Source: Lunularia cruciata (taxonomy: Eukaryota; Streptophyta; Marchantiopsida; Lunulariales; Lunulariaceae). Taken from it: a stretch of DNA of 64,000 nt. The notes beneath the pieces were generated by a model. The model did not search any database and was not told the origin of the DNA. It saw nothing but the letters and a program-made list of their open reading frames with translations. Below, piece after piece: positions 9,817 to 57,473 of this stretch (within the stretch, counting starts at the first letter, position 1; each line of letters begins with the position of its first letter). The position numbers and the translations under genes were made by a program. The DNA is taken from positions 55,632,841 to 55,696,840 of the forward strand of contig OX419762.1 in the NCBI GenBank assembly GCA_948567375.1, in the 5' to 3' direction.

Positions 9817-10235
9817 AGAGCCAAAGAAGAAGGAGAAAAGGAAGTTACATCCGTTTTGGTAGAAGAGGAAGAAGTAGACATTGGATAAGATTCATAATCG
9901 ATTTGAGATTTGAATTGTCAAATATGAAGATTGGGTTGCAATTTTAGATATGGAGATTGTTAGGGACCGGTTAATTAGTTAGATAACAAGAAAAGTGCTC
10001 AGCCTATTTAAAGGAAGCATTCATAGTGTTGTGTTTTTCAGTATTTATATTTTTGAAGTTGATGAAGTGAAGTGTTGTATCTAAGTGCTCGTCATTTCAA
10101 CTTAATTCCAAGTATCAATCCTATGTGTGTGTTTGTGAGTGTTTGAAGAATTTTGAAGTGCAAGTTAGTGACTGTTGGATGATGGATTCCATAGCATTGA
10201 TCTTCATTTTGTGTGTTTGATCTTGAGTGAAGAGC

Positions 10236-16100: not shown

Positions 16101-16527
16101 ATTGACACCTCTCAAAAGTTTGGCAAGGTAATCTAAATGTATGTCTCTTTGCCCAAACACACAAAAATCACATAAGTGCAAGCATGTGTTGTGAAGAGCA
16201 CATTTGCCTATGTAGTGGCACCTTCATTGGTTGGCATTTTTTCTTGTAGGAGAACTTTCCTCAATCATAATGAAATGCATATTCCTATTGGGACCAACGT
16301 TATTATCTGGGTCATTCTATAAAAGTTCTCCGCATGCTTGAGTAATGATTCTCACTACAAATGAGATACCTCATATTGGGTCTAGGAGTTCCTTTTCCTC
16401 CTTTGGTTCCTCTTCTTCCTCAAAAAGGTGGATCTTGTAAGTGTTGGTTGTAGTTATTGTGCTAGGGAATAACATACATAACATGCGTTGTTACTTCTCA
16501 AGGCTCTTGGTGCCTTTCAAGCATTCT

Positions 16528-27838: not shown

Positions 27839-28576
27839 TGTAATACTCCGAGGACAAGAGAAGAAAGAAAACACAGATTGCACACTCAAACCTTCGATGC
27901 CCCAAGGGAGCACCTTCTCTTTATTATATAGACAAAGAGGATCTCCTCCAAGGAAGCTCCACCATAGGATTAGGGACATAGATAGGTGACATGTCAGCAA
28001 GCTCCACCCTTGGATTACTAACTTGGATGGGTGACATGTCTGGTCTAGGTCCTATCTGGTTGGTCAAACAAGCTTTGACCAGAGGGAATCTTTTAGGGAA
28101 TCTTCTAGTAGGAATCTCAGAATCATGTGAGTAAGGTACCATTGGAAAGCTCTCGACAAGACAAAGCAGGAGGGAGGGAAGGCCAGTCATTTGTGCATTG
28201 GAGGGGAATGTGTACATTTTTGAGGCCTAATTCATTCATTTAGGCCTCCAAAATTGCCTTCAAAGATTTCAGGCATATTTCGGTTCCTACTCTATTAGTA
28301 GAAGTCCCCTTTTGGTGATACCTATTTCTGGTCTATTTAGTCCATCATGTATAACATCCTTCCAGATGTTACCATACCAATTCTCACCTTTAAATCATAT
28401 GTCTAGCTATTGGTTCTAAGGTTCTTAAGTCTATTTCGGTTTCTGCCCTATTTGTAGAAGTACTCTTTTGGTGATATTTCTATTTTATCTATTTTGACCA
28501 TCATGTATAACATCATTCTAGATGTTACCAAACCAAATTTCACATCTAGATCATATGGCTAGCTCTTGGTATTACA
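27839..28576 (-). repeat. Chromovirus 3' LTR
   Basis: TGTAATACTCC at 27839 to GGTATTACA at 28576. A TATATAAT box on the minus strand lies at 27923-27930. U3 holds two imperfect tandem units, 28276-28413 and 28433-28569, each ending CTAGCT(A/C)TTGG, which resemble duplicated upstream promoter segments. Confidence 0.95.
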
Positions 28577-28592
28577 GACCTCCCTCCTTTTA
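28577..28592 (-). promoter_or_regulatory. Chromovirus polypurine tract
   Basis: The minus strand reads TAAAAGGAGGGAGGTC directly before the 3' LTR start. It is the expected primer site for plus-strand synthesis and fixes the orientation of the element. Confidence 0.85.
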
Positions 28593-29672
28593 AGACGTAA
28601 CATCCTCGTTATGCAATTGTTGCTCAAATGCTTGCACCAACACAAGTGCATGTGCCAAATTGGCAGTGGGTTCCCAGGTGGCTTCATAGAGGGGGTAATC
28701 TTTCCATTGTACTAGATAGTCCACCCGTTGATGGCAAGTACCACGCATGCGTTTTTGGAGAATCCACTCCACTTCATATTCCTCTATGCCATCAATGAGT
28801 GTCGGACAAGGTCGAATGTCTTGTGTGGAATGACCCTGGCCTGATCGGGGAGCATATCTGCGTAGTAGGGAGACATGGAACACTAGATGGATCTTCATGT
28901 GTGGTGGTAGCTCAAGGTGATAGGCCACAATGCCGATGCGACGAAGAATCAAGGAAGGCCCAATAAAACGAGGTCTGAGCTTACGAGGTCCCACTAATGT
29001 GAGGTTGGTTGTCAATAGCCACACTTGATCCCCAACATTGAACTCCATGTGCCTATAGTGTGCATCAACATACTGCTTCCGTTGATTTTGTGCAATCTGT
29101 AATCTGTGCTTGGCGCTCTCCATACCTTGTTGGATTCTAGAAACAAATGTGTTAACTGCATCGACCTTGGTAGCCACTGGACGGATCTTCATCAAGCTAG
29201 AAGGTGTGAAGGGATGCTCACCATACATGAGGAAGAATGGAGTGACCTGGGTGGAGGCATTCATTGAATTGTTGTAAGCAAATTCCACCAATGGGAGTAG
29301 GGTGTCCCACCTCTCTTGCTCTTCTAAGGTGAAGCCGCGTAACATGTCTTCAATCGTGCGATTAGCCCGCTCTGTTTGGCCATTTGTTTGTGGGTGGTAA
29401 GCTGTGGACATGGCCAACTTGGTTTTGAAGAAACCAAAGAGTGTTTGCCAAAACAAACTAGTGAATTGGATGCCTCTATCGGTGATGAGTACTCTAGACA
29501 AGCCATGGTCAGCAAAGACTGCATCTAAGTATAATTGAGCTAGTTGTGGAGCAGTCACCTCCTTCGTGGTAGGGCGTATATGCATCATTTTGTTGAGCCG
29601 GTCCACAAAGACCACAATGGAGTCAAACCTTGAGGTGGTCTTAGGTAATTCACAGACGAGATCCATACTCAC
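28590..29672 (-). CDS. Chromovirus integrase core, GPY/F module and chromodomain (open 360-codon piece)
   Basis: This is the longest intact coding piece in the window. It starts just inside the integrase core: MDLVCELP carries the first catalytic Asp, ITDRGIQF the second and TERANRTIED the Glu. A GPY/F-like segment follows (RKLRPRFIGPSLILRRIG, LPPHMKIHLVFHVSLLRRY), then a chromodomain (EYEVEWILQKRMRG, DYLVQWKDYPLYEATWEP) that in this family targets integration through histone marks. The upstream part with the HHCC zinc-binding region (29700-29850) has in-frame stops, so this is part of a broken polyprotein rather than a separate gene. The domain identification is secure; activity is not expected. 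Confidence 0.9.
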   Translation of the reverse strand: MSMDLVCELPKTTSRFDSIVVFVDRLNKMMHIRPTTKEVTAPQLAQLYLDAVFADHGLSRVLITDRGIQFTSLFWQTLFGFFKTKLAMSTAYHPQTNGQTERANRTIEDMLRGFTLEEQERWDTLLPLVEFAYNNSMNASTQVTPFFLMYGEHPFTPSSLMKIRPVATKVDAVNTFVSRIQQGMESAKHRLQIAQNQRKQYVDAHYRHMEFNVGDQVWLLTTNLTLVGPRKLRPRFIGPSLILRRIGIVAYHLELPPHMKIHLVFHVSLLRRYAPRSGQGHSTQDIRPCPTLIDGIEEYEVEWILQKRMRGTCHQRVDYLVQWKDYPLYEATWEPTANLAHALVLVQAFEQQLHNEDVTS

Positions 29673-29989
29673 TTGTTCCCAACGTTGGGTAGGAGTGGGG
29701 AGAGGTTGAAGGAGCCCTGTAGGAGCTTGATTAGAAGCTTTGTTCTATTGACAAAGTAGGCAGCTACGCACATAGTCCATCACATCATTGTTCATCTTGG
29801 GCCAATAGTAATGGCGTTTGACTGCATCCAAGGTCTTGTCCACTCCAACATGAGCTGCAATGGCTGAATCATGACATTCCGCTAAAATGGTGGTACATAA
29901 TTCTGGGACATTTGGGATCCATAATCTGCCATCCCAAAAGGTGAATCCTTGGGTGCTGGTGACACCTTTGGATGATTGTGCTTCTACAA

Positions 29990-31326
29990 TATGTGGATCA
30001 GTTTTTTAGCAGCCAAAATCTCTTGCCAAAATTTAGGGTTAATCTTAGCCTCTGCTACCAAGTTGTTGGCCATTGGCATGCGGGTGAATGCATTTGCAAG
30101 TTGCTTCTTACCTTCCACGTAGGTGATTGTCATGTTGAAGCGTTGTCGCCACTCTGCCCACCGAATTTGGCAACGAGATAGATCCTTTTGCGTCTTGAGG
30201 TAGACTAGAGGTTTGTGGTCTGTCTCTACTACAAATGCCTTCTCGCCTAGGTAGTACTTCCAATGCTTGGTTGCTAGAATGATGGCCAGCTCTTCTCATT
30301 CTGTGGTGTGGTAGTTGTGTTTTGCTGGTAATAAATTTTGAGAGAAATATGCAATTGGATGCCATCCGTCATGCCACTCTTGTTGTAGGACTGCTCCTAT
30401 TGCTACGCCTGATGCATCTGTAGCCAACTTGATTGGACGTTTTGGGTCATACCACTTCAAGATTGGTGCATGTAGCAAGGCGGCCTTCAATTCTTGAAAG
30501 GCCAACTCTTGTGCAGTTCTCCATGTCCACTTCTTCCCCTTGCCAAGTAGTGCCGTTAAAGGCTGTGCAACCTTGGAGAAGTCCTTGACAAATCTACAAT
30601 AGAATCCTATCAACCCCAAGAAGCTCTTAAGTTGAGTCTGATCTTCTGGGGCACTCCATTTTTGAATGACCTCTATTTTATCTGTCAATACTTGAATGCC
30701 CTCTGCACTTACTCTATGCCCTAAGTAGTCTACTTCAGACTTGTCAAACTCACACTTTGAGATTTTGGCATACAATTGATTTTGTCTTAGAATCTAGATG
30801 ACCTCTCATAGATGTTGTTTGTGTTCTGTCATCGTGCTACTATATACTAAGATATCATCCAAGAAGATGATAACAGACTTATTCAAGTATGGTTGAAATA
30901 TGTCATTCATTAGACTCATGAAAGTGGTAGGTGCATTGGTGAGGCCAAAAGGCATCACAAGATACTCAAAGTGGCCATACTTGGTTTGAAAGGCAAGTTT
31001 GTACACATCCTCCTCTGCAATTCGGATTTGATTGTAACCGCTCTGCAAGTCCAATTTGGTGAAGTATCTCGCTCCATAGAGTTGATCAAATAGGTCATCC
31101 CATGCGAGATAAGGGATATTTGTTCTTCACTGTTTGCTGATTGAGACCCCGATAGTCAATGCACATGCGCATTGTACCATCCTTCTTCTTCACAAACAAG
31201 ACAGGGGCCCCATATGGTGATACGCTAGGTTGGATGAACCCTTTCTGCAACATCTCCTCAATTTGAGTCTTACACTCCTCCAACTCATGAGGTGATAGGC
31301 GATATGGGACCTTACAAGGAGGTGTC
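29990..31326 (-). pseudogene. Chromovirus RT (C-terminal part) and RNase H, with shifts
   Basis: Minus-strand order: [18 protein letters not shown] and [17 protein letters not shown] (31283-31140); a frameshift; [11 protein letters not shown] and [12 protein letters not shown]; the catalytic [11 protein letters not shown] (FxDD form) near 30860; then GHRVSAEGIQV, WTWRTAQELAFQEL and RNase H TDASGVAIGAVL (30775-30390) and ETDHKPLVYL (about 30210). Stops occur after KQHL and at YHTTE. The RT N-terminus is on the other side of the nested element at 40311. Confidence 0.9.
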
Positions 31327-31780
31327 TGTCACGCCATTTATAGTGCCGCATCTGGATGCTCAAACACTAGAGTTCCAGTGATAGTAGTTAGAGTTATTTC
31401 AGCAGTTTCTCAAAGACTACTTTCCAACGGTCAGATTTCATGTTTGGGGTACTGACTTCACGGTAGGGCCCACCGTCACTTTGCACCATTTGCACCGTCG
31501 AGTGTGCCGTCAGCGGGACCGTTAGGGTTTCAGAGCTAGCTCAAGTCCAGGGGGTATAGTTTCAAAGTGAGCTCTAGAGAGCTCAATTCTCTGATGTTGA
31601 GCCTTTGAGTTCCCGGCTATGGTGGACAGAGGCCGGCGAGCGTCACCTGGATTCTCTATGCTTGAGTGGAAGTGGCTTGATTGTAATCAGTGCCCAGTTG
31701 TTGGCAGTTTATAGAATGACAGATCAAGTACTGATCTGAGTTGAGTTGAGTTGAGTTGAGAGTGTTAAGTAATCTAATTA
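31327..31780 (+). repeat. Left LTR remnant of the methyltransferase element
   Basis: The first about 23 bases are unique to this end; 31350-31780 aligns with 39776-40204. It contains (GAGTT)n, with five GAG units here against four on the right. The last about 105 bp of the LTR and the PBS seem to be missing, since similarity stops at AATCTAATTA. Confidence 0.85.
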
Positions 31781-33290
31781 CATTAGAGAAGTGAAGTCAT
31801 GGGGAAATCGGGTGCAGGAACTATGAGTGTTGGTGGTATCTCCAAGCTTGGTGGATCTCTGGTAGCTCGATTCAAGTTCAGTGTTTCCCTAGTGTGCAGC
31901 AGCTCAATCAATTGATGCAGATTTGGCAGTTAGGCAGACGGTGTGCGGAAGTGTTGGTCAAATTTTGAGCAAAGAAGGAGCAAATTTTAAGCAGTGGTTG
32001 TGATTTTGAGCTTAGGAGGTGAAAGCATGACCAATTTGCTGCGAGTTGGGCTTTGAAAGTCAAATTGAAGGTGGAGTTGGGAAGCTATTCTCATGAATTT
32101 GTGATTTGGAAAAACCCATGTTGTCAATTTGGCTTGAGTGGAAAGTTAGCGGGGGATTTGGCGGACAACCAACTTTAGGGTTTACGTCAGATTTTGGTTG
32201 GGATTTATGTCAGATTTTGGCCAGATTTGGAGGAGTTTTGCTAGTTTAGAAGACTTTCACAGATTTGGAGAAGTTTTGCCAATTTTGGAGGAGGTTTGAA
32301 GTGGCAAGAAGAAAGGCCTCATTTGGGTATTTAGAGGCTTCGAGGCATAGGGCTGTGGGCTATGAGAGGCTACGGAGGCCTAGAAGGGCCAGAAGAGCCA
32401 GCTTGATGGCGTGAGGCTAGCTAGTTTAGAGTAGATCTGGGTCATTGGTTGGCAAAATCTACCTTTCCTGCTAGATTGTGCACAACAGGGTTTGACCCCT
32501 AGCTCTCTTGTTCCTAGACTGGTGCCCTAACCAACAGGTCCACCCTCACTTGTTGTTCTAGTGACTGTGCCACTGTTATCTATACACATGTAGCTTTGGC
32601 TAGGAGAGGCAGTTTGATCCTATTCTTGGTGATCCTGGTAGATTAGGACTTAGATACGAACTTCTCTTATGTCAAATGCCAAATGGTGGCCGAGTCAGTC
32701 CCGTGTTGTGTTATGAGATGGAGGGCTTTTGTTTAGATTTCTTTTCTTGTGATTGGATCCCCTCCATTCTTTGCTTCCTGTTTTTGCACCACATTTGTGT
32801 GAGGTGCCCTGACTTTTGAGTATTGGTGCTCTGGTGTGCTCTCAGTGGTGAGGCTAGAGTGATGACCAGTCAGACTACCTTTGTTTCTCTCCGGTGAGGC
32901 AGGAAGTGATGACCTGCAGACCGTGAGAGTGCGTGTTATGATGGCAGATTACCGGATGGCAGATTACCGGGTTGCCCTTTCCCCTAGTGTAGTTATCTTG
33001 GTTAGAGTTACATTAGTGGGTGGTGTTTAGTTGGTGTTGGCACGTGGTGGTGTTGGCACTTGGTGGGGCACTTGCGGTTGCAATTGGTGGTTTGGGTTTG
33101 CTGTTGTGGTTACTTTGTAGCGACGGAGTTCTTTGGAGATTCCAAAGGAGTTAGCCCCGCAGTACGCAGTGGGTTTACTCGGAGTGGTGCTTGGTATCAA
33201 CTTGTATCTCAGGTCCCTGTGAGAGAGGAGATTGACTTTGAGTTGGAGTTCAACACAGGAGCTGATTCAGTTGAGAGTGCACTCGGTGTG
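31781..33290 (+). other. 5' leader of the methyltransferase element
   Basis: About 1.5 kb of G/T-rich, mostly non-coding sequence precedes gag. It contains a minus-strand tRNA-like piece at about 32470-32545 and short repeats such as a doubled ATGGCAGATTACCGG at 32941-32970. A TGGTATCAACTTGTATC near 33189 resembles a tRNA-iMet PBS but lies inside readable sequence far from the LTR, so I do not call it. Confidence 0.5.
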
Positions 33291-33309
33291 TCCGCACCGT
33301 TGTTGTGGG

Positions 33310-34395
33310 ACATGGACAAGATTTATAGGGCCTCCAAAGGCCCTAGGCGTTACTCTGGTATAGTGGGTACCATCGATTTGGATGACTTCATTTCGGAGTT
33401 TGACATTTGGTGTGATCTGCAGTAGATGCGGAACTCGACTTTGTTCACACCCTTCATGGCATGGAAGGAGTTGTTCCAACACTTGGAGGGTCCACTGATG
33501 GATGACTACCATGAGTTTAGGAGAGCTCATTTGCAGGAGATTGAGTTATGGAGATAGTATTGGTATTCAAACTATGTCTCTATCACTTCAGGTTTGGTGG
33601 CCAAGAGTAGATAGGTTGTACCTATGAGTTCTAGCTCGAGTAGAGTGGGTGGAGCTAGTGGAGGTGCACTAGCTAGAGATAGTGCTACTACGAGTGGAGG
33701 TACCGCTGCAGGAGGTGGTGTGGTACCGGGGTTTAACCCCATGGTGGAGTTCTTCCTGTGTTTGAGGCATAACTACTAGGGAGTGCGGACTGACAAGCTG
33801 AGGAGCTTGCAGGAGTTCCAGCGGAAGGCTGGAAAGAGCCTACGCAAGGCATACACTCGCATGAGGCGTTTGATCAGTTTCACTCAGGGAGTTACTAAGG
33901 CCCAAGCAGTCTTGTTTTGGTATGGGATAGTGGACAGGGAGTTACAATGTAGAGTTCATGATGCTACATTGTTGCAGGCTACTTCACCCACTTTGGCAGT
34001 AGTCTTTGGTTTGGCTGAGCGTATTGAGCTCAATATGGTGGAGGAGAGAGTGGTGACATCTGGATTTGGTAGGGAGACCTCATCCACAACTGTGACTTCT
34101 TCTAGAGTGCAGCAGAGTGCAGCAGAGTGCACCACGCCCAATTGGTTTTCGAGGATAGGATGGACAACCCAGATCCTATGGAGCGAGTGGAGGGCCTAGT
34201 GGAGTTAGACCCTTACTCTCATTTTTGGATCAGCAGCAGCCAGTGAGTGGTAGTGTTGCTTGTTGGACTTGTGGTGGACCTCACCATTGGAGAGAGTGTA
34301 CTCAGGGCATTGGACCTGATACCTCAGGTGCATCACAGCCAACACAGAGGCAGTGTGAGCACTACCACAGATTTGGTCACACTAGTGACCGGTGT
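33310..34395 (+). pseudogene. gag of the methyltransferase element (capsid region and two zinc knuckles)
   Basis: Capsid-like pieces start at DMDKIYRASKGPRRYSG (33310) and continue with TPFMAWKELFQHLEGP (33450) and LRSLQEFQRKAGKSLRKAY (33795-33855), as in Retrotrans_gag domains. In-frame TAG codons sit at 33423, 33555, 33612 and 33777, and a frameshift follows before 34225. Two knuckles come next: CWTCGGPHHWREC at 34261-34299 (one residue shorter than usual in the middle) and one at 34354-34395 in which the second Cys has become Tyr. Gag packages the element RNA. Confidence 0.85.
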
Positions 34396-35214
34396 TTTGA
34401 CCTACACCAGGAGTTACGGAGTGGTAGGGCTGCTATGGCAAGTAGTAGAGGAGCTCCAATTCATGAAGGACGAGGTGGTAGAGGTGGTGGTAGAGGATCT
34501 ACACCTAGTAGGGGTGCAATACCTACCCTTACTTCTGACACAGCTATGGCTACTCAAATTGAGCAATTGGAGCAAAGATTGGCTAGTATGGCTATTGCTC
34601 AGAGGAGATCAGATTTGGCTGCTAAGGCTTCCACCTCATATGATGGTGATAGAGATGCTTTGGACTTCATGTGCGGAGCAACACAGGTGGATGCATCTGC
34701 AGCAGTGACTAGGAGTGCAATACGTGCTCTAGAGCCTAGAGGAGCATCAATGGAGTTGGACCCACAGAGAGGAGAGGTTGGGAGATAAGTCAGACTTCCT
34801 CAATCTTTCACGCTATCTGAGGCATTGCAAACGACATCCATGGTTCTTAGATGTCCCAGTGCAGGTGTGGTAGGTGGTGATGGAGTACATGATGGACTAC
34901 CTGCTAGTCAGCTACCTGCTACTACACAGATTGAGTCTAGCATGATGTTGGGGACGGCTCAGCTGATTATGCGGTGTCCTTTGTTTTTGGCCAGTAATAT
35001 GTTTACATTGGGATTTTACCTAACTCTAGTGTTCCGGTTGGCTGCCACGTTGTGTGAGAGTGGGGATGGTGCAGTTCCTACTACTAGAGTAGAGGTGGTT
35101 GGTAGTGGAGCTGACTTGGTTGAGGAGCATGGGATCCGTTCAGCGACCAGTGGTTTATGGCAGGCAGCAACGGCTAGACTGGAGGAGTTGCCAGCTAGAC
35201 CAACCTTTGAGAGA

Positions 35215-35690
35215 GTACGGTTTATACCTGGTGTTGTCCTATTGGATAACCAGAGAAGGATTTTTTGTTTGGTGGGACCTTCAGGGAAGGTCTATACACC
35301 ACAAAGAGTCTTGTTAGACTCTGGTGCGTAGCCTCTTATGTTGGAGAAGGCTACAATTGTCGGTATGGAGTTACGGAAGACCAATGTGGAGAGGTGTCCA
35401 TTTCAGATCCAGACATCTCTAGGTGGTGGTTCAACACATTACATCACGCGTAGAGAGCTTGTTGTCTAGGTTCAGCCTGGTCATCCGACTGATAGCTCAG
35501 TGGTGAGAGCTTAGGCTATTGCGACGATAGCTGAGTCATATGATGTGCTAGTTGGGGGAGCAGTGTTATACCCCATGGGTTTCAGCATTGACTATTGGAA
35601 GGAGACAGCCTCTTATAGACCTGGTTGGCAGTCTGGTGAGGGACGGGTATGTTGCCTACCAGTATGCTTTAGTAGTGGAAGTCTTGGCTC
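35215..35690 (+). pseudogene. Aspartic protease of the methyltransferase element
   Basis: The catalytic DSGA is at 35317-35328, directly followed by a TAG where the family would have Gln (35329). Further TAG codons lie at 35467 and 35512. The C-terminal flap-like segment reads YDVLVGGAVLYPMGFSIDYW and TASYRPGWQSGEGR (about 35537-35650). It is fused in the gag-pol frame upstream of the methyltransferase. It would mature the polyprotein; this copy cannot. Confidence 0.8.
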
Positions 35691-35978
35691 ACTATAGTCC
35701 GGGACCATGGCAGCATCAGTTTTAGCTTTTAGTGGTGCAGTTACTTGGCCTGGTGACTTGTTAGAGTGGAACACCCATGCAAAGGATACTCCAGTACCAA
35801 AGGAGATCACTTGGCTTTGGAGTACAAGTGGGATTGTTCCGTCCACCTTGGATATCCCATTGTGGAGTTCAGAGGAGGCATTGTAGTAACATGCAGATCA
35901 GTTGGTGCAGTAGGCTTGGAGTGGAGCCTTTGTACCATCAAGAGATGAGTGTGAGGATGAGCCTCTAGAGACGATTGC

Positions 35979-37011
35979 TTTGACACCTCTAGATACCACA
36001 CACTCATTGCTTGGCAGTATCCAGTAGAGGGGATATGCCTATTGGAGTTGTTTGGTGGGATCAGCACCAGACTAGCTGCGGTGTTACAGGCAGGTATACA
36101 AGTACGGAGGTACTTGTATGTAGAGAGAGATGAGACTACTAGGTGAGTCTCTCTACATCATGTGGTAGACGGCCTATTGGTATCCGTAGTTATTACCGAT
36201 GTCAGCAGTCAAAGGTTACCAGAAGGCCCTATCAGGAGACATTTCCTTACTAGGAGCGTATGACGTAGAGAGACATGGGCCTATTCACTTGGTGATTTGT
36301 GGATGGCCATGTCAAGGACATACACGTGCTGGTAGAGGATTGGGTCTTCAAGATCCTCATTCTGGTGTGTTTTGGGAGATGTTACGGATACTACAACATC
36401 TCCAGGTTCATCAGTCCGTTTCTCCAGCTTACCTTTTGGAGAACATTCCTTTGATGGGTGATTCTCGCACCAGAGTGGTGGCGAGTACACATCAAGTCCA
36501 TTCTTGGATGGGACTTGCTGTATTGTTAGATGCAGCAAGAGTGGGATCACGGGCTCATTGTCTTTGTCTTTGGTGGATGAACCTCTTACCTAGAGAGGTT
36601 CTACAGCGTGCTTATGATGGGATTCAGCAACTGGACCACATTCTTGTTGATGATATCTTGGATGTTAAGCGTGAGTCTCAAATAGTGGTAGTAGCTGATA
36701 GGTCACCTATGGTAGTAGTGAACCTAGTTGGACAGCCTAGAGCCACATTTCCCACACTCATGAGTTTCCCAAGCTCGCATGCTTTTCGAGAGGGAGGACT
36801 TGGACTTGTTTGGGACTCATAGTTACAGCAGTTGGTGGAGCCCAATGCCGATGAGAGAGAGCGGGCGATGGGTTTTCGCACCGGTATTACCGATGTTCTA
36901 GCAATGTCAAAGGTATCCAGGCATTAAGTGGTAGGTCAGGCTATGGACCTGAATTGTTTGACCTGGATTGTGAGCATTGGCTTGGCAGAGCAATGTAGGA
37001 TGCGCTTGATA
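35979..37011 (+). pseudogene. Retrotransposon-borne C5-cytosine DNA methyltransferase (DNMT3-like motif order), decayed
   Basis: Motif I reads CLLELFGGISTRLAAVLQAG (36036-36095; AdoMet binding) and motif II YLYVERD (36111-36131). After a TGA (36144), a frameshift near 36170 and a TAG (36187), one open piece (36199-36819) holds motif IV ICGWPCQGHTRAG with the catalytic Cys codon at 36310, motif VI LLENIPLMG with Glu at 36439, and motif VIII SRAHCLCLWW at about 36547-36573. Two Cys codons there (36559, 36565) stand where Arg is expected. After a TAG (36820), motif IX ERERAMGFRTGITDV (36856-36897) and motif X VVGQAMDLNCLTWIV (36928-36972) follow, with a TAA at 36925 between. The linear I-to-X order and the fit of AHR-type motif VIII and GF..TDV..MS to DNMT3 suggest a DNMT3-like origin (inference). 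It lies between protease and RT in the gag-pol frame, so it would be made as part of the polyprotein and could methylate cytosines in element or host DNA. Confidence 0.85.
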
Positions 37012-37500
37012 GGCATCACCACTCGGACACTTGTGAGCTCTATGCCTATCAAGACAATTCAGGCACATGCTAGGGGCGATGGACCGAGTCGACATGGTAT
37101 TCTTGGGACACATCCAGTAGCTACTAGGGAGAGTGGTCTAAATGGAGTCCATCTAGGTGAGCGTGGGCTACTTGGATTACACCCTTGGTCCACATGGGAT
37201 GCAGCTAGAGTGGAGGGAGTTTTTCACACAGAGGTTGGGACCTCTAGTGGTCGGGAGCATGACATTATTGCTCCCAAGGGCCTAGTGTAGCAGCCAGTCA
37301 ATACGTCTTCCACTCCTACTACAGTTGCAGAGGATACTTGGGAGCCAAATCTTGGATCCAAGCTTATTGGAGAGGAAAGATAGGGGGTTTGGAGGTTCTT
37401 GAGGAGTCATACAAGTTTTTTGCCTTCAGTATGAAGGATTTGGGTGCTCTAAAGGGACCTGGTATATGGATTGAACTAACTAGCAACACACCAGTTTTTT
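37012..37500 (+). pseudogene. Linker between methyltransferase and RT
   Basis: The frame of motif X continues to 37290 with low-complexity Gly/His/Arg-rich sequence (TWDAARVEGVFHTEVG near 37190-37240) and ends in a TAG. A shifted frame then gives LEESYKFFAFSMKDLGALKG (37396-37460), which leads into the RT. I recognise no domain. It may be a spacer or the remains of a chromatin- or nucleic-acid-binding segment. Confidence 0.5.
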
Positions 37501-38951
37501 GATGTCCTTATTGATATAATGAGATGGAGAGGACATTGATTCAGAGCCGGAGTAGTGACCTTTTTGAGGCTGGTTTGGTGGAGATTTCACATGGAGAGTA
37601 TGCATCAGCAACAGTGATGCTAGCCAAGAAGGATATGCATGGCAACTATACAGATAGGCGGATGTGTGGAGATTACCGTCCTGTCAACCAATAGACCAAG
37701 GCTGATCGGTATGCCATGCCTACACCGGAGGAGATTTTTTATGCGATTGGGCATGCAAAGATCTTCAGTCCTTTAGATCTTCGAGCAGGATATCATCAGT
37801 TGCCGATTAGGGAGGAGGATAAGTCCAAGACAACATTTTGGGCTATTGATCCTCACGGAAAGGATGTGTTATATCAGTGGAAGTTCTTACCATTTGGGTT
37901 AAGGAATGCTCCTTTTGAATTCCAAAGGGTCATGGATAGGATCCTAGCTGGATTGGATTTTGCTCGGTGTTATATTGATGACATTTTGGTCTATAGCACT
38001 ACTGTGGAAGAGCATGAGAGACAGTTGTTGGAGGTGTTTGAGAATTTGAGATCCCATGGACTCAAACTACATCTTGGGAAGTGTAAGTTCTTCTACAAGC
38101 AGGTTGAGTATTTGGGTCACACTATCTACCCTGGAGGACTTGGTGTTCAGCAGACCAAGGTGGAGGCTATTGCACGTATTCCTTAGCCTACGGATGTGAG
38201 TAGAATGCGAGTATTCCTTGGGTTGGCAAACTTCTATTGCCGCTATGTTAGAGGATTTAGTACCATTGCCAAGGCCTTGACAAAGCTGACCAAGCTTACA
38301 CAGGAGTGGTCTTGGGAAGATAAGCAAGAGAGAGCTTTTGTAGAGCTCAAGGAGAGGTTGACATCTGCTCCTATTTTGAGGAGACCGATCAGGGGACGAC
38401 CATTTCAGGTTCACACTGATTGGAGTATGTTGGGGCTTGGAGCGGTGCTCATCCAACATGATGATGAGGGGAAGGAGTTTGTGGTGGCCTATGCTAGTCG
38501 CTCCAACAATTCAGCGGAGGCAAAGTATAGTTCATATGAGGGAGAGTGCTTGGCAGCAGTTTGGGCAGTAGCACATTTCCGATGTTACCTATTTGGTAAC
38601 CCCTTCACTCTCATCACTCACCATCAGCCACTAAAGTGGTTGATGGAGTCCGACAAGCTTTCAAGGAAGCTTGCACGATGGGCTCTGATTTTACAAGAGT
38701 ATGATTTCACGGTTGTTCACAGACTTGGAATGGTGAACCGTGATGCAGATAGGTTGAGTAGAAACCCATGTCCCAACCAGCAGGATCAGACCAGAGCACG
38801 TTGGCATGGTGAGACAGATGAAGAGATGGTGCCAGGTTGGCATGCATCGCCCTTTTTGTGTATATTTGCAGAGGCTTTGGTGGTATCTCTCTCAGTGCAT
38901 ACAAGAGGAGTTATTGAGGTCACAGATCCGAGAGTGAAGATATTGGTATAG
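37501..38951 (+). pseudogene. RT and RNase H of the methyltransferase element
   Basis: RT: LIQSRSSDLFEAGLVEIS, RRMCGDYRPVNQ, then LDLRAGYHQLPIREEDKSK, LPFGLRNAPFEFQRVMDRI and the catalytic CYIDDILVYS (YIDD at 37971-37982). RNase H follows after a TAG at 38184: VFLGLANFYCRYVRGF, HTDWSMLGLGAVL (first Asp), YEGECLAAVWAV (Glu), LITHHQPLKWL and VNRDADRLSRNP. In the third motif His replaces the Asp expected in TDHQPL, which would abolish RNase H. A TAG at 37692 also interrupts. The TFWAIDPHGKDVLYQWKFLP block differs from chromovirus and Athila/Tat RTs elsewhere in this window. Confidence 0.9.
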
Positions 38952-38959
38952 TTCAGCAA

Positions 38960-39784
38960 GACATTTATGATGATGTCTTAGTGATGGACTATCTTTGCAC
39001 TGGTGTTGTGGGTGGTACAGTTGGGGCCAAGGAAAGAGACCGTGTTCTTCAGCGAGCCAAACGGTTCAGATTGGAGGGAAGACACTTTTTGTGTGTATGG
39101 GAGGATGGTAGAGTACGAGTAGTACCACTTCCATCCCAGAGACCACAGTTGGTCCGTCATGCTCATGAGGAGCTAGGACATTTTGGAGTAAAGCATACAT
39201 ATAGCTTACTCCAAAGTCATTATTGGTAGTGCGGTATGCAGACCGAGGTACAGCACTTTGTTGCCAGATGTGTGGTTTGTGACCAAGTTAGAGCATCATT
39301 CAATGCTCCTACGCCACAGTTACACCCATTACCTATCATGGGATTGGATTACCGTTGGAGTTTAGACTTTGCCGGACCTTTACTGCTGACTGTGAGACAT
39401 CATTGGTATGTTTTGGTGATGGTAGAGCACTTCTCCAAGTGGATTGAGTTGGTGGCGCTTCATGACAAGTCTAGTGAAGGGACAGCTTACTTGTTCCTAA
39501 ATCAAGTTCTTAGTCATTTTGGTGCACCAGCTGAGGTTTTGACTGATCAGGGTATAGAGTTCTTGGGGGAGTTTCAGGTCTTGTGTGACAAGGCTTTGAT
39601 TGATCATTGTACTACATCCCGAGATCACCCTGAGGCAGATGGCTTAGCAGAGAGAGTGGTTCAGACGGTGAAGAGAGGATTGCAAAAGTATGGTTTGCAG
39701 AGAGGCCACTTGGGAGATTGGGATCTTCAGTTACCTTGGTTGGCCATGGGTTATCGGTTCAGCCGGCAAGCCTCCTGCATCTAG
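38960..39784 (+). pseudogene. Integrase of the methyltransferase element, 3'-truncated
   Basis: The zinc-binding HHCC region is visible as HAHEELGHFG and CVVCDQ (39150-39290, TAG at 39227). The core has SLDFAGPLLL, VLTDQGIEFLGEF and EADGLAERVVQT, keeping D, D and E. It ends at AMGYRFSRQAS and runs straight into the right LTR at about 39776, so the C-terminal integrase region and any chromodomain are missing. The deletion also removed the first bases of the right LTR. Confidence 0.9.
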
Positions 39785-40310
39785 ATGCTCGGACACTAGA
39801 GTTCCAGTGATAATAGTTAGAGTTATTTCAGCAATTTCTCAAAGACTACTTTCTGACGGTCAGATTTCATGTTTGGGGTACTGACTTCATGGTGGGGCCC
39901 ACCATCACTTTGCACCGTTTGCACCATCGAGTGTGCCGTCAGCAGGACCGTTAGGGTTTCAGAGCTAGCTCGATTCTAGGGGGTATAGTTTTGAAGTAAG
40001 CTCCAGAGAGCTCACTTCTTTGATGTTGAGCCTTCGAGTTCTTGGCTATGGTGGACAGAGGCTGGCGAGCGTCACCTAGATTCTCTATGCTTGAATGGGT
40101 GTGGCTTGACTGTAATCAGTGCCCAATTGTTGGTAGTTTATAGAGTGACAAATCAAGTACTGATCTGAGTTGAGTTGAGTTGAGAGTGTTAAGCAATCTG
40201 ATTATTGTGGCACTTTAGAGTCTATGTATGACTTATGTGTGAGTTGTGCTTCTATAGTGTATGATGTTGATAGCAATGTATGTTTTGTAGTGATGTATAT
40301 ACGCACGACA
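39776..40310 (+). repeat. Right LTR remnant of the methyltransferase element
   Basis: 39776-40204 aligns with 31350-31780 of the left LTR, and about 106 additional bases to ..GCACGACA at 40310 complete the 3' end. It lacks the first about 23 bases found on the left. The TGTC duplication at 40311-40314 follows. Confidence 0.85.
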
Positions 40311-40907
40311 TGTCTTCCCCAAAAGTGTCTCTATTTTGTGATCTACTTGTCTTTTTGGTGGTAATCCTGAGGGTAGATCATCGAGAAAGACATCTTGAAA
40401 CTCATCCACCATATCCTTCAATTTCTCAAGAATTTGTCCATCAAGTTGTGCACTCTGGACTTCTCTTATTAGACCCATAAAACATCTATCGGTCTTACAG
40501 ACAGTTGCCATCCCTACGACATATAGAGGCAATTTCTGCCTGTGTGATTTTTCTTTAACCCCAATGATTGACCATTGGTGGGTTCTCACTACTTCCTTCC
40601 TCCAATCCACCATAGGGTTGTAATGCTCCATCCATGGCATGCCTAAAATTGCATCATAACGAGCTAATTGTATCACTCGCCACTCAATTACTTCCTGATA
40701 TTCTCCTACAGAGAGGGTTACTCATCTAGGTAATGATTCAATCCTCTTTGTTTGCCCATTTGGTAACTCTACTTCTTCACTTCCATCTCTCTCTAGATCC
40801 ACTCCCAATCTTATTGCAACAGAGAGAAACAAGAAATTCTCTATTGCTTCCGGATCTATTAATACTCTCACTTGATTACCTTCTAGGATTCCATTCACGA
40901 CAATCAA
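40311..40907 (-). pseudogene. Chromovirus protease and pre-RT region
   Basis: Read on the minus strand: VRVLIDPEAIENFLFLSVAI is the aspartic protease active-site region, but DPEA replaces the expected DSGA/DTGA, so it would be inactive. A stop follows; then YDAILGMPWMEHYNPMVDW, DEFQDVFLDDLPSGLPPKRQ and VDHKIETLLGK lead into RT and are cut at 40311 by the nested element. The sequence resumes at 31326 and below. Confidence 0.85.
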
Positions 40908-41118
40908 TTGTGAGGTTGCCTTTAGGGATCTTTGCGCATTATTCTTCTTCCTTCCCTCGCTTCTTTGCTTCCTTATTGAGCCAGTAAGGCTGTGAGGTAC
41001 ATTTACTGGTGATCTTTGTTTTCCGAAGTGATTTCCACCTCCTCCTCTTCAATATGCCTCTCCATGTTGTTCAAAGATTGCCTGTACAAAGGCCAATGGC
41101 CTTTAGGGAAATGAGTGC

Positions 41119-41171
41119 AATAGTTAGTAGATATGTGCCCAATACGGCCACAATTGTAACAACGACATTGT
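41119..41171 (-). pseudogene. Chromovirus gag zinc knuckle
   Basis: The minus strand reads CYNCGRIGHISTNYC, a C-x2-C-x4-H knuckle with five rather than four residues before the last Cys. It lies downstream of the capsid piece in gag order and is separated from it by frame breaks. Confidence 0.75.
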
Positions 41172-41377
41172 TCTCCTCTAGTCCCTTCTCCTCGTGGGAC
41201 TCCGTCTCTTTGTTCTTCTACCCGTCCCCGCTCGCCTTGAAGCGGTCGTGCTCCTTGATCCCAGAATCAAAGGTTGCCCAATTCCATCGGTACTAGTCCA
41301 CCCATGTGTGGCATTTCTGCCCAATAATGTTGAGGTGGAACTACTCCTTCACCTCCACCTAATGCTCCTGCTATTCT

Positions 41378-41968
41378 CTATGCACAAGCAATGGCTTCAA
41401 ATACCGTGCAAGGATTTTGCACCATGACTTCTTGGCAAATCCGCTCTTTCAACCCTTGTTTGATATTGTCGAGAGCCTCTACTGGACTCATGTCGGTAAT
41501 TGCGACTTGTAGATCCAAAAATGCCTCCACATACTCTTGTACGCTATTCTTTTGTCTCAATCCCCATAGTCGGGTTTGAGCCATCTGCACAAAATCCACC
41601 GATTGGAAATTCTTGAGCAGTCCTTCTTGCATTGCTGTCCATGTGACCTCCCTTCTCTCTGCCAGCATGGATTCTTCCCAAGCATCATACCATGTGAGGG
41701 CTTTATCGGTCAAGTACCGACATGCAAACACGCCTACATCATGCTCTGTGACCTCTGTTGAGAACAATTGGAAATATCGATTCATTCTCAAGATCCAATT
41801 TTCCACTACTCCCATCGTATGTTGCCCCTTGTAAGGCTCAATGTTGCAGGTCTTCTTCATCCGGAGTAGCAATGTGGCTTCATTGTTGATAGGGTTTGTA
41901 GGCACGGGTGCCTCTCCAAGTACTTCAGTCGCAAGTACTGGGTTTTGAGACGGCTCTTCTTCTTGCAT
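41378..41968 (-). CDS. Chromovirus gag capsid region (open 196-codon piece)
   Basis: Retrotrans_gag-type domain: an acidic N-terminus, then IEPYKGQHTMGVVENWILRM, VFACRYLTDKALTWYDAWEE, WTAMQEGLLKNFQSVDFVQM, LWGLRQKNSVQEYVEAFLDL and EALDNIKQGLKERIC. The helical pattern and the W-Y-D-A-W and L-x-x-L-x-Q motifs are typical of plant chromovirus capsids, which assemble the virus-like particle. It ends in a stop at 41378; the rest of gag is in another frame. Start chosen at 41968 because it is the first ATG before the acidic segment. Confidence 0.85.
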   Translation of the reverse strand: MQEEEPSQNPVLATEVLGEAPVPTNPINNEATLLLRMKKTCNIEPYKGQHTMGVVENWILRMNRYFQLFSTEVTEHDVGVFACRYLTDKALTWYDAWEESMLAERREVTWTAMQEGLLKNFQSVDFVQMAQTRLWGLRQKNSVQEYVEAFLDLQVAITDMSPVEALDNIKQGLKERICQEVMVQNPCTVFEAIACA

Positions 41969-42124
41969 GGCTTGATTGTTCCTGAGGATCTACACTTGAC
42001 TTTGTAATGTCTCCATGGTCATCTTAATCTCTCAAAATTCATTCAATGTCCCTTGCATTCCTTGCACCAGCTCTTGCAATTGCAGATCCATGGTTCCTGC
42101 AACACTCAATTGCTAATGTCTACT

Positions 42125-42560
42125 TCAATACAAAGTCAATATAATCACTCTGGAAGGCGCACGAACTATCAAAACTACCATTGGGACCTCGAAAGCTATC
42201 ACTCGTTGATAATACTCCTCACCAAAATTCCTAACCACAAAATCTCTAAACATCACTTTCGGCCTCACTACATAACGGATTTCCATTTGAGTGTTGAAAG
42301 GGAGAGGATTTGGGACATTCATATCCATTTTATCATAATAGAATGTAGATTGCCAAATCCCACTCTCTGTCATATATCACCACAGGTAGAACACCGAGTT
42401 TGGTGAATTCATCACTCTGTCCATGAATTCTGCACCAAAATGATAAATTAGCGATACCCTCATCTGCTCACGCTGGATGTACATAACCTTGATGTGGAAT
42501 GGGTTTGAGAATGGAAAGCTAGGTGCGGGAAATTGTGCTCCCGGCGCATCCATCCCATCT
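42125..42560 (-). pseudogene. Unidentified coding-like segment in the chromovirus leader
   Basis: Between the PBS and gag the minus strand has about 145 codons of one frame with a single TGA: FPFSNPFHIKVMYIQREQ, FGAEFMDRVMNSPNSVFYLW, then after the stop TESGIWQSTFYYDKMDMNVP, NPLPFNTQMEIRYVVRPKV and FGEEYYQRVIAFEVPMVVLI. The amino-acid composition is that of a folded protein, not of gag. I do not recognise the family. It may be a captured host gene fragment or an extra element ORF. Confidence 0.5.
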
Positions 42561-42681
42561 GCTCTCTAAAGTCATTCCTAAGTCTAGCGATTACTCTATG
42601 TTCTCCACCTCAAATTACTCAGTTTTAGTAGTTCATGCTATTCCAAGAGGGCTGATCCACTCTCTTGGACTAGAACACTCT

Positions 42682-42692
42682 CTCTGATACCA
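42682..42692 (-). promoter_or_regulatory. Primer-binding site, tRNA-iMet type
   Basis: The minus strand reads TGGTATCAGAG one base after the 5' LTR end. This is complementary to the 3' end of plant initiator tRNA-Met, the usual primer for chromovirus minus-strand synthesis. Confidence 0.9.
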
Positions 42693-42693
42693 T

Positions 42694-43419
42694 TTTAATA
42701 CTCCAAGGACAAGAGAAGAGAGAAAACTCAGATTGCACACTCAAACCTTCGATGCTCCAAGGGAGCACCTTCTTTTTATTATATATACAAAGAGGATCTC
42801 CTCCAAGGAAGCTCCACCATAGGATTAGGGACAAAGATAGGTGACATGTCAGCAAGCTCCACCCTTGAATTACTTACTTGGATGGGTGACATGTCTGGTC
42901 TAGGTCCTATTTGGTTGGTCAAACAAGCTTTGACTAGAGGGAATCTTTTAAGGAATCTTCTTGTAGGAATCTCAGAATCACGTGAGTAAGGTACCACTAG
43001 AAAGATCTCGACGAGACAAAGCAAGGGGGAGAGAAGGATAAATTTTCCTCCATTGGGGGGAAATCTGCACATTTTTGAGGTCTAATTCATTTGTTTAGGC
43101 CTCCAAAATTGCCTTCAAAGATTTCAAGCATATTTCAGTTCCGACTCTATTAGTAGAAGTCCCCTTTTGGTGATACCTCTTTCTGATCTTTTTATTCCAT
43201 CATGTATAACATCCTTCCAGATGTTACCAAACCAATTCTCACCTTTAAATCATATGTCTAGCTATTGGTTCTAAGGTTCTCAAGTCTATTTTGGTTTCTG
43301 CCCTATTAGTAGAAGTACTCTTTTGGTGATACTTCTATCTTATCTATTTTGACCATCATTCTAGATGTTACCAAACCAAATTTCACATCTACATCATATG
43401 GCTAGCTCTTGGTATTACA
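42694..43419 (-). repeat. Chromovirus 5' LTR
   Basis: It aligns along its length with 27839-28576. The terminal G of TGTAATAC has changed to T here (TTTAATAC at 42694). It carries the same TATA-type TATATATAATAA (42775-42787, minus) and the same tandem U3 units at about 43133-43271 and 43291-43412, the second with a deletion of about 14 bp. Confidence 0.95.
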
Positions 43420-43957: not shown

Positions 43958-45860
43958 TGTGGTACCCACATTTTTCATTTTGGATGAGTTTTGAAGAAGA
44001 AGTGCCTTGCTGAAACCAAATTGAAACCAAATGGAGAAGAAATGAGGAGAAACTTTTGTTTTGATCAAGCTCAAGGAAGTCAACTTTGTGTTGGAGGTAG
44101 AAGGACTCAGATTGGATCAGACCCAAAGAAGCTTACTTTTTGTTAGAGGAAGAGGAAGAAGGAGGTCAGACGCCATAGGAGGGTTTCTTTGCATTGAAAT
44201 GGAGGTTACAAGTCAGGATTATTGCAGGAGCCTTATCTCAATGATGAAAAGTCCAAATCATTCATTTTTTACTTTTTTGGAAGCATCTCATTCATGGCTT
44301 TCCATTGCTACCAACATCGCATAGTTTGGAGGTTTGTAGAAGAAGTTACAAGCATTTGAAGTTTTGGGAGTAGATGTATAGAGTAGTTGAGTGTCTTCGA
44401 GTTGGTGACTTTGTGTCTATACAATTTTGGACTTATATGACTTTGGGGTTTACAAGACTTTGGGTCTAAAGACTTTGCCTCAAGACAAATATGATTCAAC
44501 CCAAGGTAGTTAGACATCAGATGTGGGAGTCTTTGGGTCAAATATCTAAAGCGTTTGAAATAGATAGGAAAGATAGTTAGGATATCCATGATTTCAATTT
44601 CAGTTCTAATTGAAGATGGGATAGAAATCAAAGGAGAAATAGTAGTAGTGAAGGAACCCAAAGTGCAAGATTAGACAATAAGTGTCTTTGGGTTAATAAT
44701 ATGAGCAATTAGGGAAAAGTAGGTTACAAATTGAAGGCGTTACAAAGTTAGTGTACCCATGCTTTCAATCACAATTCTTAATGAGGATATAGTAGAATCA
44801 GCAAAGGAATTGATCATAGTTAGATCTAAAGGTGCAAAAGTAGGAGTGCAGGTGTCTTTGGAGTTGTCATCTAAGACTTTAGAGAAGAGTGGATCGGAAG
44901 ATAAAGAGTTAGATAAAGTACCCACTAGTGTAATTGTAGTTCAGGGTGAAGAAGTAGTAGAAATAGTGAAGGACTTGGTAGAATTAGATATACCCAAATA
45001 AGGAGAAGTGATAGGCAGAGCATTGGGTTTGGAAGCCAAAGTTGAAGTAGACATCAGATTGGAGTAGTGACAGTTTTGAGATTTGAAGACGCAGATATGA
45101 AGAGGTGGTTTGTCATTTTGGATATGCGGGTAGGAAGAGTTGTTATAAAATGGTATAGTTGTTAGTAAGTGTCAATTGCTTTATTATTCAAAGGGAGCAT
45201 TTACAGTGTTATGTTGTTGAATATTCATAATTTCTGAAGATAAATAAAGTGAAGTGCTGATTTTAGTGCTCGTTGCTTGAGCTTGATTTCAAGTATCAAT
45301 GTTGTGTTTTTGTTTGTGAGTGTGTGAAGAATTCTGAAGAGCAATTTAGTGTGCTTGTTGGATGTTGGATTCCACAGCCTTGATCTTCATTCTATGTGTT
45401 TGAGTGAAGTGCAATCGCAGCAATGCCTTGACAAATCTGAGAGGAATTGTAGTGTTTGTAGTATTCTATAGTTGTGAGTGCAGTATAGTGTTGATGTGAA
45501 GCAATTTCAATCAAGGAACTTATGCCTTCAGTGGAGGGGTAGAACACAATTCTGAGGTGAAGTTGTTTTGCAATGAAGTGCCGTCTTTGAGAGAATCTGA
45601 ATCATCATAATCAAGATTTATTTAGACAAAAATTTGTTATATTGTGATTATGAGTGTGTGAACTTGTGACAAGTTGTCTAGATTGAGTGCTTGTTACTCT
45701 CTTTTGGGTGTGGTTTCTACCTGAGAGATTAAAGACGCAACCAAGAAGAACTACTTGTTATTGTTTGACTTTGTATTTGACCAATTTTGACCAATATCTT
45801 TGTGGGAACAAACTTTACTTACCTGATTATCACAAAAGTGATCTTTTCCGGGTTGTCACA
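43958..45860 (+). mobile_element. Short LTR-A unit (ORF-deleted solo LTR), 1.9 kb
   Basis: It runs from TGTGGTACCCACA at 43958 to GGGTTGTCACA at 45860, with the AAGAT duplication at 43953-43957 and 45861-45865, inserted in the coiled-coil codons of copy 6. It keeps the family leader, the C-terminal part of the U3 ORF (44759-45069, ending VEVDIRLE) and the R-U5 part, but lacks the N-domain and coil. The same internal deletion type occurs at 55243-56989, so this may be a propagating non-coding variant. Confidence 0.85.
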
Positions 45861-47229
45861 AAGATTTATCATGAAGAGTTGAAGGTGGAATGCTCTTCTA
45901 GGTATACATCAGAATCAGTAGGAGAGATAGTTGAGAGAATAAGAGCAATGTTGAGCACAAAAGCTGAAGGGAAGATAGAAGAAGTGAGGATGCATGAATT
46001 GAAATTACTTGTGCTAGAAACTTGGGAAAGGAAGGCAAAGGACATAAACATGAATAGTTTTTTGATTTTTTTGAAAGATCAAGTAGGTAGGAAGATGTCA
46101 GAGATAGGAGACAATATGAGTCTCAGATAAGATTTAGTAAAATCAGAATTAGATAAATTTTGGAGTAGTGTGAACAAAGATATTAAGTCCAAAGTTGTAG
46201 AAGTAGGAGTGCAAGTGTCTTTGGGTAAGTTACCTAAGACATTAGAGAAGAGTGGATTAGTTGATAAAGGAGTAGATAAATTACCCATGACTTCAATTGT
46301 AGTTCAGATTGAAGAGATAGTAGACATCATGGATGAAGAAGTAATATTAGATAGACCCGTAGAAGGAGAAATACTTGAAGGAACCTTGGGTTTGGAAGCC
46401 ACAATCAAGGTTGACATTGGATTGGAGTAGTAGCAGATTTGAGATATGGAGAGGCAGATATGAAGATGTGGTTTGCCATTTTTGATCTGTAGGTTGATAA
46501 ATTTGTTATGGAATAGTATATTGGTTATATTATTATCAAGTGCAAAGCCTATTTAAAGGAAACATTCATAGTGTATTGTTGTTCAGTATTCATATTTTTG
46601 AAGTTGAGTAAAGCAAAGTGTTGTAACTCAATGCTTGTTTTTATAGCTTTATTCCAAGTATCAATCTTGTGTGTGTGTGTTTGTAAGTGTTTGTAGAATT
46701 TCAAAGTGCAAGTTAGTGAGCGTGTTAGATGTTGGATTCTACATCTCTGATTGCATGTTGTGTGTTTGTTCTTGAGTGGATAGCAATTGAAGCAATGCCT
46801 TGATACATCTGTGAGGAACTATAGTGTTGGTAGTATTTTGCATTGGTAAGCGCAATACAAGGTTGATGCAAAGCAATTTTGATTGAGGAAGTTGTGCCTT
46901 CAATGGAGGGGTGGAACACAATTCTGAGGCAAAGTTATTTCATAGTGAAGTAGCCTTCTTTGGGAGGAATTGAATCATCATAATCAAGCTTTGTTTGGAA
47001 AGATTTGATGATATTGTGATTATGAGTGCAATTTGTTGTGATGAGATTGTGATTACTGCTTGTTACTCTCTTCTAGGTGTGGTTTTTACCTAAGAGACTA
47101 AAGATGCAACCAACAAGAACTGATTTGTTATTATTTTACTTTGTATTTGACACTTTCTGAATTGTATCTCTGTGGGAATGAACTTTACTTACTGATTAAT
47201 GCAAAAGTGATATTTGCCAAGTTGTCACA

Positions 47230-56989: not shown

Positions 56990-57126
56990 GGTGCTTTTGA
57001 CAATATCTGCCACTAGACAAGTTTGTTTTGTTCTCTATTTCATCTTATAATGCAAAGCTTCCCCCAACATGAAGAGTGGAACTATGGTTAGAGGGATGGA
57101 TTCTATAGCTATATTCATTTCCTTGC

Positions 57127-57473
57127 TTATTGTATGTGTTTCCTTTTTGTTAGGTGGGGGTGATGATTGGTCCTACTTTGTTCTTGTCCACTACAAGAGA
57201 CAAGATTCATTTGAAATGACTCCTTGCTCCTAGACTTTACAATTTCAGCAACTTTGGCATTTTGTTTGTGTGCCACCTCTTTTCCTTGTGGTGGACATCC
57301 CTCTTGAGTCAATTTGTATAATGTTGTTTTACTCTTATTATCTTTTGACAAAGATTCCAACTCTTGAGGCCATTTTTACTGAATTTTTGCACAAGGTACT
57401 AGAGTCTTTTCTCATATCATAATGGAGTTGTGTCTCTCCACTACTTGCATGAACTTCCTGGTTTAGGCATATT
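57127..57473 (-). pseudogene. Minus coding remnant, continuation of 61261-61917
   Basis: MESLSKDNKSKTTLYKLTQE and GKEVAHKQNAKVAEIVKSRS (57360-57130) read on the minus strand. Since the solo LTR at 57474-61260 has a perfect ATATT duplication, this region was once contiguous with 61261 onward, so it is probably the downstream part of that divergent ORF. Confidence 0.45.

Follow-up and report, generated by a model that had tools for sequence, protein, structure and literature searches.

Retrotransposons are main targets of DNA methylation, and a retrotransposon carrying a de novo methylating enzyme inverts the usual picture. What would such an enzyme do for the element that carries it? The question is raised by a 64,000-nt stretch of the Lunularia cruciata genome (assembly GCA_948567375.1, contig OX419762.1, positions 55,632,841 to 55,696,840 of the forward strand), referred to here as the window. 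It holds a decayed, nested Ty3/gypsy long terminal repeat (LTR) retrotransposon on the + strand (31327-40310), inserted with a target-site duplication, in which a C5-methyltransferase domain stands between the protease and the reverse transcriptase. Relatives of the element keep the catalytic motifs and the neighbours of the domain, and the trees of methyltransferase and reverse transcriptase agree. We read it as a member of a family of gypsy elements, with long predicted proteins in liverworts and peat mosses, whose DNMT3-type enzyme would add methylation to newly made DNA of the element itself, and give this reading even chances.

A methyltransferase domain inside a gypsy element

The original prediction, made from the letters of the window, described a methyltransferase embedded in a Ty3/gypsy polyprotein between a DSGA protease and a YIDD reverse transcriptase, on one strand and bounded by LTR remnants. 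Motifs, Pfam matches, LTRs and the target duplication all confirm this arrangement. The domains follow one another on one strand as gag/CCHC, protease, C5-methyltransferase, reverse transcriptase, RNase H and a truncated integrase. The gag region (33312-34127, interrupted by stops) is 63% identical to residues 1-262 of a Marchantia protein of 1278 residues (P0061; library proteins are cited by number). It is followed by two CCHC zinc knuckles (34261-34395, at 34261-34299 and 34354-34395; 51%), seen in the sequence and collinear with P0061, a linker (49%), an aspartic protease (35209-35604, with LLDSGA at 35311-35328; 55% to P0061 residues 601-735) and a further linker (53%). Gag and protease were assigned by kinship with P0061, as Pfam gave no gag or protease family match on this copy (34159-34785 and 34789-35328). 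The methyltransferase itself lies in two pieces, 36000-36164 (motif I and the following strand; 73% to P0061 over 55 residues) and 36181-36993 (motifs IV, VI, VIII, IX and X; 67%), after which a C-terminal tail (36994-37290) completes the gag-protease-methyltransferase frame. Of the span first proposed, 35979-37011, the presence of the domain stood, whereas its limits did not: homology starts at about 36000 and the frame continues as far as a stop at 37288-37290.

The reverse transcriptase (37476-38159, YIDD at 37971-37982) lies in another frame, open from 37263, and matches PF00078 (2.7e-29 on 37695-38183). Together with RNase H (38160-38948; PF17917 5e-36, PF17919 2.8e-33) it aligns by tblastn to Marchantia P0069, at 73% and 79% identity respectively. 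The integrase (38960-39775; H2C2 part PF17921 1.6e-7, core PF00665 1.1e-11) is truncated and its PHD finger is gone; it aligns by tblastn to P0126 (53% over 277 columns) and to Sphagnum P0097 (75%). Gag, protease, reverse transcriptase, RNase H and integrase thus occur in the order of a Ty3/gypsy element, on one strand, with LTRs and a short target duplication. Judged by these domain-by-domain identities, the methyltransferase comes close to the polymerase parts in conservation and exceeds gag, protease and linkers.

At the borders of the element, the bases TGTC(T) at 31323-31327 recur identically at 40311-40315. Assuming a four-base duplication, the element runs from 31327 (TGTCACGCC...) to 40310 (...ACGACA) and has the usual TG...CA ends. 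The 5′ LTR remnant (31327-31780) and the 3′ LTR (39777-40310, with its first ~21 bases gone) form a direct repeat, 90.3% identical between 31348-31780 and 39777-40204; over 428 columns the two differ by 34 transitions and 3 transversions (Kimura two-parameter distance 0.094). The inner edges of both LTRs are apparently damaged, and no primer-binding site or polypurine tract was recognised there by eye. About 106 bases at the end of the 3′ LTR lack a partner in the 5′ LTR, the last 112 bases of the right end occur only once in the element, and both ends carry deletions; DIRS-like terminal repeats, sought in the element with its ends in this condition, were not found. By eye the insertion appears clean, the frame of the outer element breaking off at one side and resuming at the other.

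Within the methyltransferase, motif I (LELFGGIST, 36042-36068), motif IV (GWPCQG, 36301-36318), motif VI (LENIP, 36436-36450), a degenerate motif VIII (GSRAHCLCLWW, 36544-36576) and motifs IX/X (ERERAMGFRTGITDVLAMSK, 36853-36912, and VVGQAMDLNCLTW, 36928-36966) follow in linear order (36042 < 36301 < 36436 < 36544 < 36853 < 36928), unlike in DRM. The stop-free part, 36190-36819, matches the Pfam family DNA_methylase (PF00145) at 4e-6, its 26.9 bits exceeding the cut-off of 22, and P0061 reaches 35.6 bits with the same family. By tblastn, P0061 matches the window methyltransferase with 58% identity over 343 columns (E 2e-140) and 73% over 55, which is far above chance.

The family (A1) profile was compared with PDB, where 55 chains matched up to 0.1. 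The original prediction had named a better match to another S-adenosylmethionine-dependent family as the finding that would count against it; instead, DNMT3A was the best match (8.3e-24). It was followed by 4onj (9e-12), titled only DNA methyltransferase, which we take to be a tobacco DRM, and by DRM2 (1.2e-8), a tRNA C38 methyltransferase (2.6e-8), DNMT2 (4.7e-8), HaeIII (1.4e-7) and HhaI (7.7e-7). None of the 55 chains is named DNMT1 or CMT. A fold comparison also ranks DNMT3A/3B first. Judged from sequence, the domain is DNMT3-like: it is nearest to DNMT3 among the solved C5-methyltransferases, and its motifs are linear.

Bryophyte relatives and two architectures

The protein-database search suggested with the original prediction was made with a 210-residue piece of the window as query, and found bryophyte relatives with gypsy neighbours, 60 of 415 candidates passing at E 0.01. 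Five of these carry an organism name, in each case that of a bryophyte (Sphagnum troendelagicum, Calypogeia fissa, Marchantia polymorpha, M. paleacea and Riccia sorocarpa). A second search, with P0001 as query and proteins of about 524-1666 residues, retained 80 of the 7991 scored candidates, which were limited to those with most words in common with the query; the 24 with an organism name belong to M. polymorpha (20), Calypogeia fissa (2), Sphagnum troendelagicum (1) and S. fallax (1). The proposed land-plant lineage is hence upheld by every organism-named match (5 of 60, 24 of 80 named). The suggestion of a gymnosperm origin was not: these named matches include no gymnosperm, fern or flowering plant, and none of the three is named in the best 120 of 937 matches of the outer element described below. 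No Klebsormidium nitens protein is named among the methyltransferase matches of either search. IMG/VR gave no match, and among GTDB contigs 16 stretches fit the pattern, none of them a relative. The locus tags of M. polymorpha are spread over chromosomes 1, 2, 4, 6, 7 and 8, which argues against contamination. Some relatives are already labelled DNA methyltransferase in databases.

P0061 aligns by tblastn to gag (33312-34127; 58.8% over 272 columns) and then, collinearly, to the CCHC knuckles, protease and methyltransferase (34111-37260; 47.7% over 1085 columns), the alignment ending 7 residues before the end of P0061. Protease or reverse transcriptase adjoins the domain in the sufficiently long M. 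polymorpha, Calypogeia and Sphagnum rows. Riccia P0046 spans the methyltransferase into the start of the reverse transcriptase, and M. paleacea contributes a fragment of 199 residues. Among the near-full relatives (57 of 140), the PCQ cysteine in GWPCQ is kept in 51, the EN[VI] glutamate in 49 and motif VIII (GS.AHR.R) in 47, while S. fallax P0097 lacks motif IV.

Two architectures were distinguished. In class A the methyltransferase follows the protease and precedes the reverse transcriptase; among the 80 long relatives, 26 rows show gag-protease-methyltransferase, 13 show protease-methyltransferase, and others reach the reverse transcriptase. In class B it comes after RNase H and before the integrase, as in P0109, P0124 and P0130-P0132, as well as in P0107 and P0126 by Pfam positions (for P0107 the other range estimate is too wide). 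Protease and methyltransferase share one protein in 48 of the 80, and the methyltransferase stands alone in 8. A PHD finger lies behind the integrase in some methyltransferase-carrying relatives (P0106, P0107 and P0126). A PHD finger was also seen behind the integrase of a Haematococcus chromovirus (P0181), and one may guess that it reads a histone mark and guides integration.

Trees were built from hand-picked rows. In a first methyltransferase tree, made by a quick search and combining 47 of the 140 library proteins with the window piece and DNMT3A, the split between classes A and B received a support of 88 and the 15-row set of the window 99 (Shimodaira-Hasegawa-like approximate likelihood ratio test, SH-aLRT); long branches led to P0140 and DNMT3A, the outgroups, and to P0126, P0125 and P0133. 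A careful tree was built without these five and had 44 rows, the window piece joining 43 library proteins. Classes A and B form the two sides of one of its branches (100/99), with 2 of the 22 class A rows (P0001 and P0006), which have no protease or reverse transcriptase of their own, labelled by similarity. The window piece falls in a 15-row set (100/98) made of all bryophyte-named rows and five without an organism name, with Riccia as its weakly supported sister (87/76). In a quick reverse transcriptase tree of 21 rows, a single branch (99) again sets class A apart, and the reverse transcriptase of the window is placed with those of Marchantia and Sphagnum (96); it fills 44% of the columns and P0097 13%. 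Rooted on a single outgroup, class B is not a clade in this tree. Because both trees split A and B alike, reverse transcriptase and methyltransferase appear to have travelled together within the classes. The searches were queried with the methyltransferase domain, hence the sampled gypsy elements all carry it. As a separate observation, the outgroup P0140, of 1278 residues, has a C5-methyltransferase near its C-terminus with a faint family likeness (E 2.7e-3), and might, at a guess, belong to a dinoflagellate DIRS-type element.

Collinearity with P0061, neighbours of the domain that recur in Marchantia polymorpha, Riccia, Calypogeia and Sphagnum, and the agreeing trees all support the earlier proposal that a DNMT3-like enzyme is part of the element. 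A separate insertion of the domain, raised at the same time as a way in which that proposal could fail, was not borne out, the relatives carrying it between the same neighbours.

Known elements and possible roles of the enzyme

The original prediction had correctly named precedents in a charophyte alga and in dinoflagellates (PMC5890265). KnitGypsy-Dnmt3, described in the charophyte Klebsormidium nitens by De Mendoza and colleagues in 2018 (PMC5890265), is likewise an LTR element of the Ty3/gypsy kind whose polyprotein includes a non-rearranged DNMT3 domain that keeps the catalytic residues. It differs in its host, a charophyte alga against land-plant relatives here, the two being compared by description, and apparently in its DIRS-like repeats (PMC5890265), where the element here has direct LTR repeats and a target duplication. 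A further difference is the position of the domain at the end of the gag-protease open reading frame (ORF), seen here in many of the long relatives. SymbioDIRS-Dnmt3 and SymbioLINE-Dnmt of Symbiodinium are also methyltransferases carried by retrotransposons, but of other classes and, according to PMC5890265, independently acquired; the DIRS-borne enzymes methylate CG de novo in yeast.

Cellular DNMT3s of plants, gymnosperms included, are described in PMC6453930. They share the DNMT3-type catalytic domain but are host genes with a C-terminal DUF3444 (PMC6453930), whereas here protease and reverse transcriptase adjoin. Animal DNMT3A and DNMT3B are the best matches in PDB by sequence and fold, although DNMT3A has PCN at motif IV and the family here PCQ in the alignments. 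Animal DNMT3s also carry PWWP and ADD domains (PMC12344493), neither of which gave a Pfam match in the seven relatives scanned. In a passage of a 2019 paper, land plants are said to be without transposon-encoded DNA methylases (PMC6338049), and neither PMC9033089 nor PMC8616336 addresses the question in its matching passages. A literature search, mainly of open-access texts and without bioRxiv preprints, found no land-plant report of such elements, which is weak evidence of novelty.

The original prediction had suggested that the enzyme perhaps methylates the element's own copies, to escape or tune host silencing; the role proposed here follows the reading frames. In the window the methyltransferase frame stops near the point where P0061 ends, and the reverse transcriptase is in the other frame. 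Among the 39 protease-methyltransferase rows without a reverse transcriptase, 21 were measured and end 57-141 residues past the methyltransferase. Since the gag-protease frame closes with the methyltransferase, the enzyme may be made in Gag-like amounts. It would be translated with Gag and packed into the virus-like particle; there or shortly afterwards it could place CG methylation on the double-stranded complementary DNA (cDNA), before or at integration. The host maintenance enzyme would then copy the mark, and the new copy would enter the genome already resembling host heterochromatin. Methylation could in this way protect the cDNA and lower expression of the element itself. Methylation of cDNA, protection and slowed transposition are all among the roles proposed for transposon-borne methyltransferases in PMC5890265.

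The window copy itself is dead and cannot encode a working enzyme. The frame of its methyltransferase shifts between 36164 and 36181, in-frame stops interrupt the first piece once and the second three times, and cysteine replaces both motif VIII arginines, which a functional enzyme requires but membership of the family does not; the replacement is interpreted as decay. The aligned domains together contain 20 in-frame stops, of which 14 stand opposite a Q or R of the relative. The CpG observed/expected ratio is 0.26 in the window and 0.34 in the element. CpG depletion and the transition-heavy decay are compatible with the decay of methylated DNA, and the copy was probably methylated and then eroded by C-to-T change.

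Several points weigh against the proposed methylation of new copies. Only 10 of the 20 stops are one C-to-T change away from a Q codon (giving TAA/TAG) or an R codon (giving TGA) of the relative, and low CpG is common to the whole window and nothing particular to this element. The relatives are predicted proteins from plant gene models, which may bypass stops by splicing. Of the 21 proteins measured beyond the methyltransferase, two (P0066 and P0068) are partial records. A single ORF from gag to integrase would escape the second search because of its limits on protein length, and P0105 and P0126 hold methyltransferase and reverse transcriptase in one protein, so split frames are not universal. 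In addition, yeast showed no methylation by the KnitGypsy-Dnmt3 domain, a negative result called inconclusive because human DNMT3B failed too (PMC5890265).

Other explanations account for the domain differently. A host DNMT3 gene or pseudogene could lie beside, or have inserted into, an unrelated gypsy element by chance, as the broken window copy and the change of frames around the domain might suggest. Marchantia P0061, collinear from gag through the methyltransferase, the 48 of 80 long relatives with protease and methyltransferase in one protein, and the A/B split shared by both trees leave this explanation with almost no probability. Chance or separate insertion was accordingly set aside as ruled out by the collinear relatives and the agreeing trees. 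It is very improbable, too, that catalysis was lost long ago and that the domain persists in a structural or nucleic-acid-binding role, as DNMT3L does. The window copy has a degenerate motif VIII and GWPCQ is missing in 6 of the 57 near-full relatives, but the PCQ cysteine (51/57), the ENV/ENI glutamate (49/57) and motif VIII (47/57) are kept in most.

Methylation of RNA (the genomic RNA or the tRNA primer, in the manner of DNMT2) rather than of DNA has been raised for the LINE-borne enzyme in PMC5890265, and Gag-linked enzymes encounter RNA in the particle. We consider it improbable, as the profile favours DNMT3A (8.3e-24) over DNMT2 (4.7e-8) and the fold comparison places DNMT3A/3B at the top. 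The enzyme might instead silence the inserted copies of its own element, sparing the host, rather than protect cDNA. Plants read methylation of promoters as silencing, which counts for this view, as does the decay of the copy within a CpG-poor setting; a benefit to the host through slower transposition has also been proposed (PMC5890265). Nevertheless, a silencing gene reduces its own spread unless the benefit to the host is large, and none of the measurements distinguishes silencing from protection of cDNA; we judge self-restraint unlikely, if well short of negligible. An extension of the preferred reading, methylation of the element's own new DNA, would make these elements a streptophyte-wide gypsy lineage with a working de novo methyltransferase since before land-plant diversification, made at Gag level, packed, and delivering methylated copies in liverworts and mosses today. 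We regard this extension as doubtful. Since Marchantia polymorpha, where long predicted relatives occur, is a genetic model, ordinary genetics could ask why a transposon wants its own DNA methylated, and the two positions of the domain make the timing of methylation relative to reverse transcription and integration testable.

Surrounding repeats

The window consists mostly of nested repeats. The element is inserted into an older chromovirus on the - strand (27841-43419), which it splits, and whose LTRs (27841-28576 and 42696-43419) are 91.5% identical. Pfam recognises gag (41381-41989, -), RNase H and an integrase-chromodomain piece with SH3 and chromodomain (28593-29744, -) in the outer element. 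Among the best 120 of 937 matches of the integrase-chromodomain piece, Calypogeia fissa proteins are the closest named (58%), and no vascular plant is named in a library whose gymnosperm and fern content is not established. Taken together, the named relatives of the inner and outer elements make a bryophyte host the likelier one.

Rfam and tRNA scans of the 64-kb window gave no matches. Other gypsy reverse transcriptase, RNase H and integrase fragments were found by tblastn at 24290-25934 (+) and 14415-16116 (-). A repeat of 0.6-1.3 kb occurs in both orientations (6036-6875, 10228-11489, 44825-47229, 56003-58784 and 63127-64000), its copies being 74-83% identical. Seven further sizeable ORFs of the window are without a Pfam match; some lie near this repeat and look coiled-coil-like by eye.
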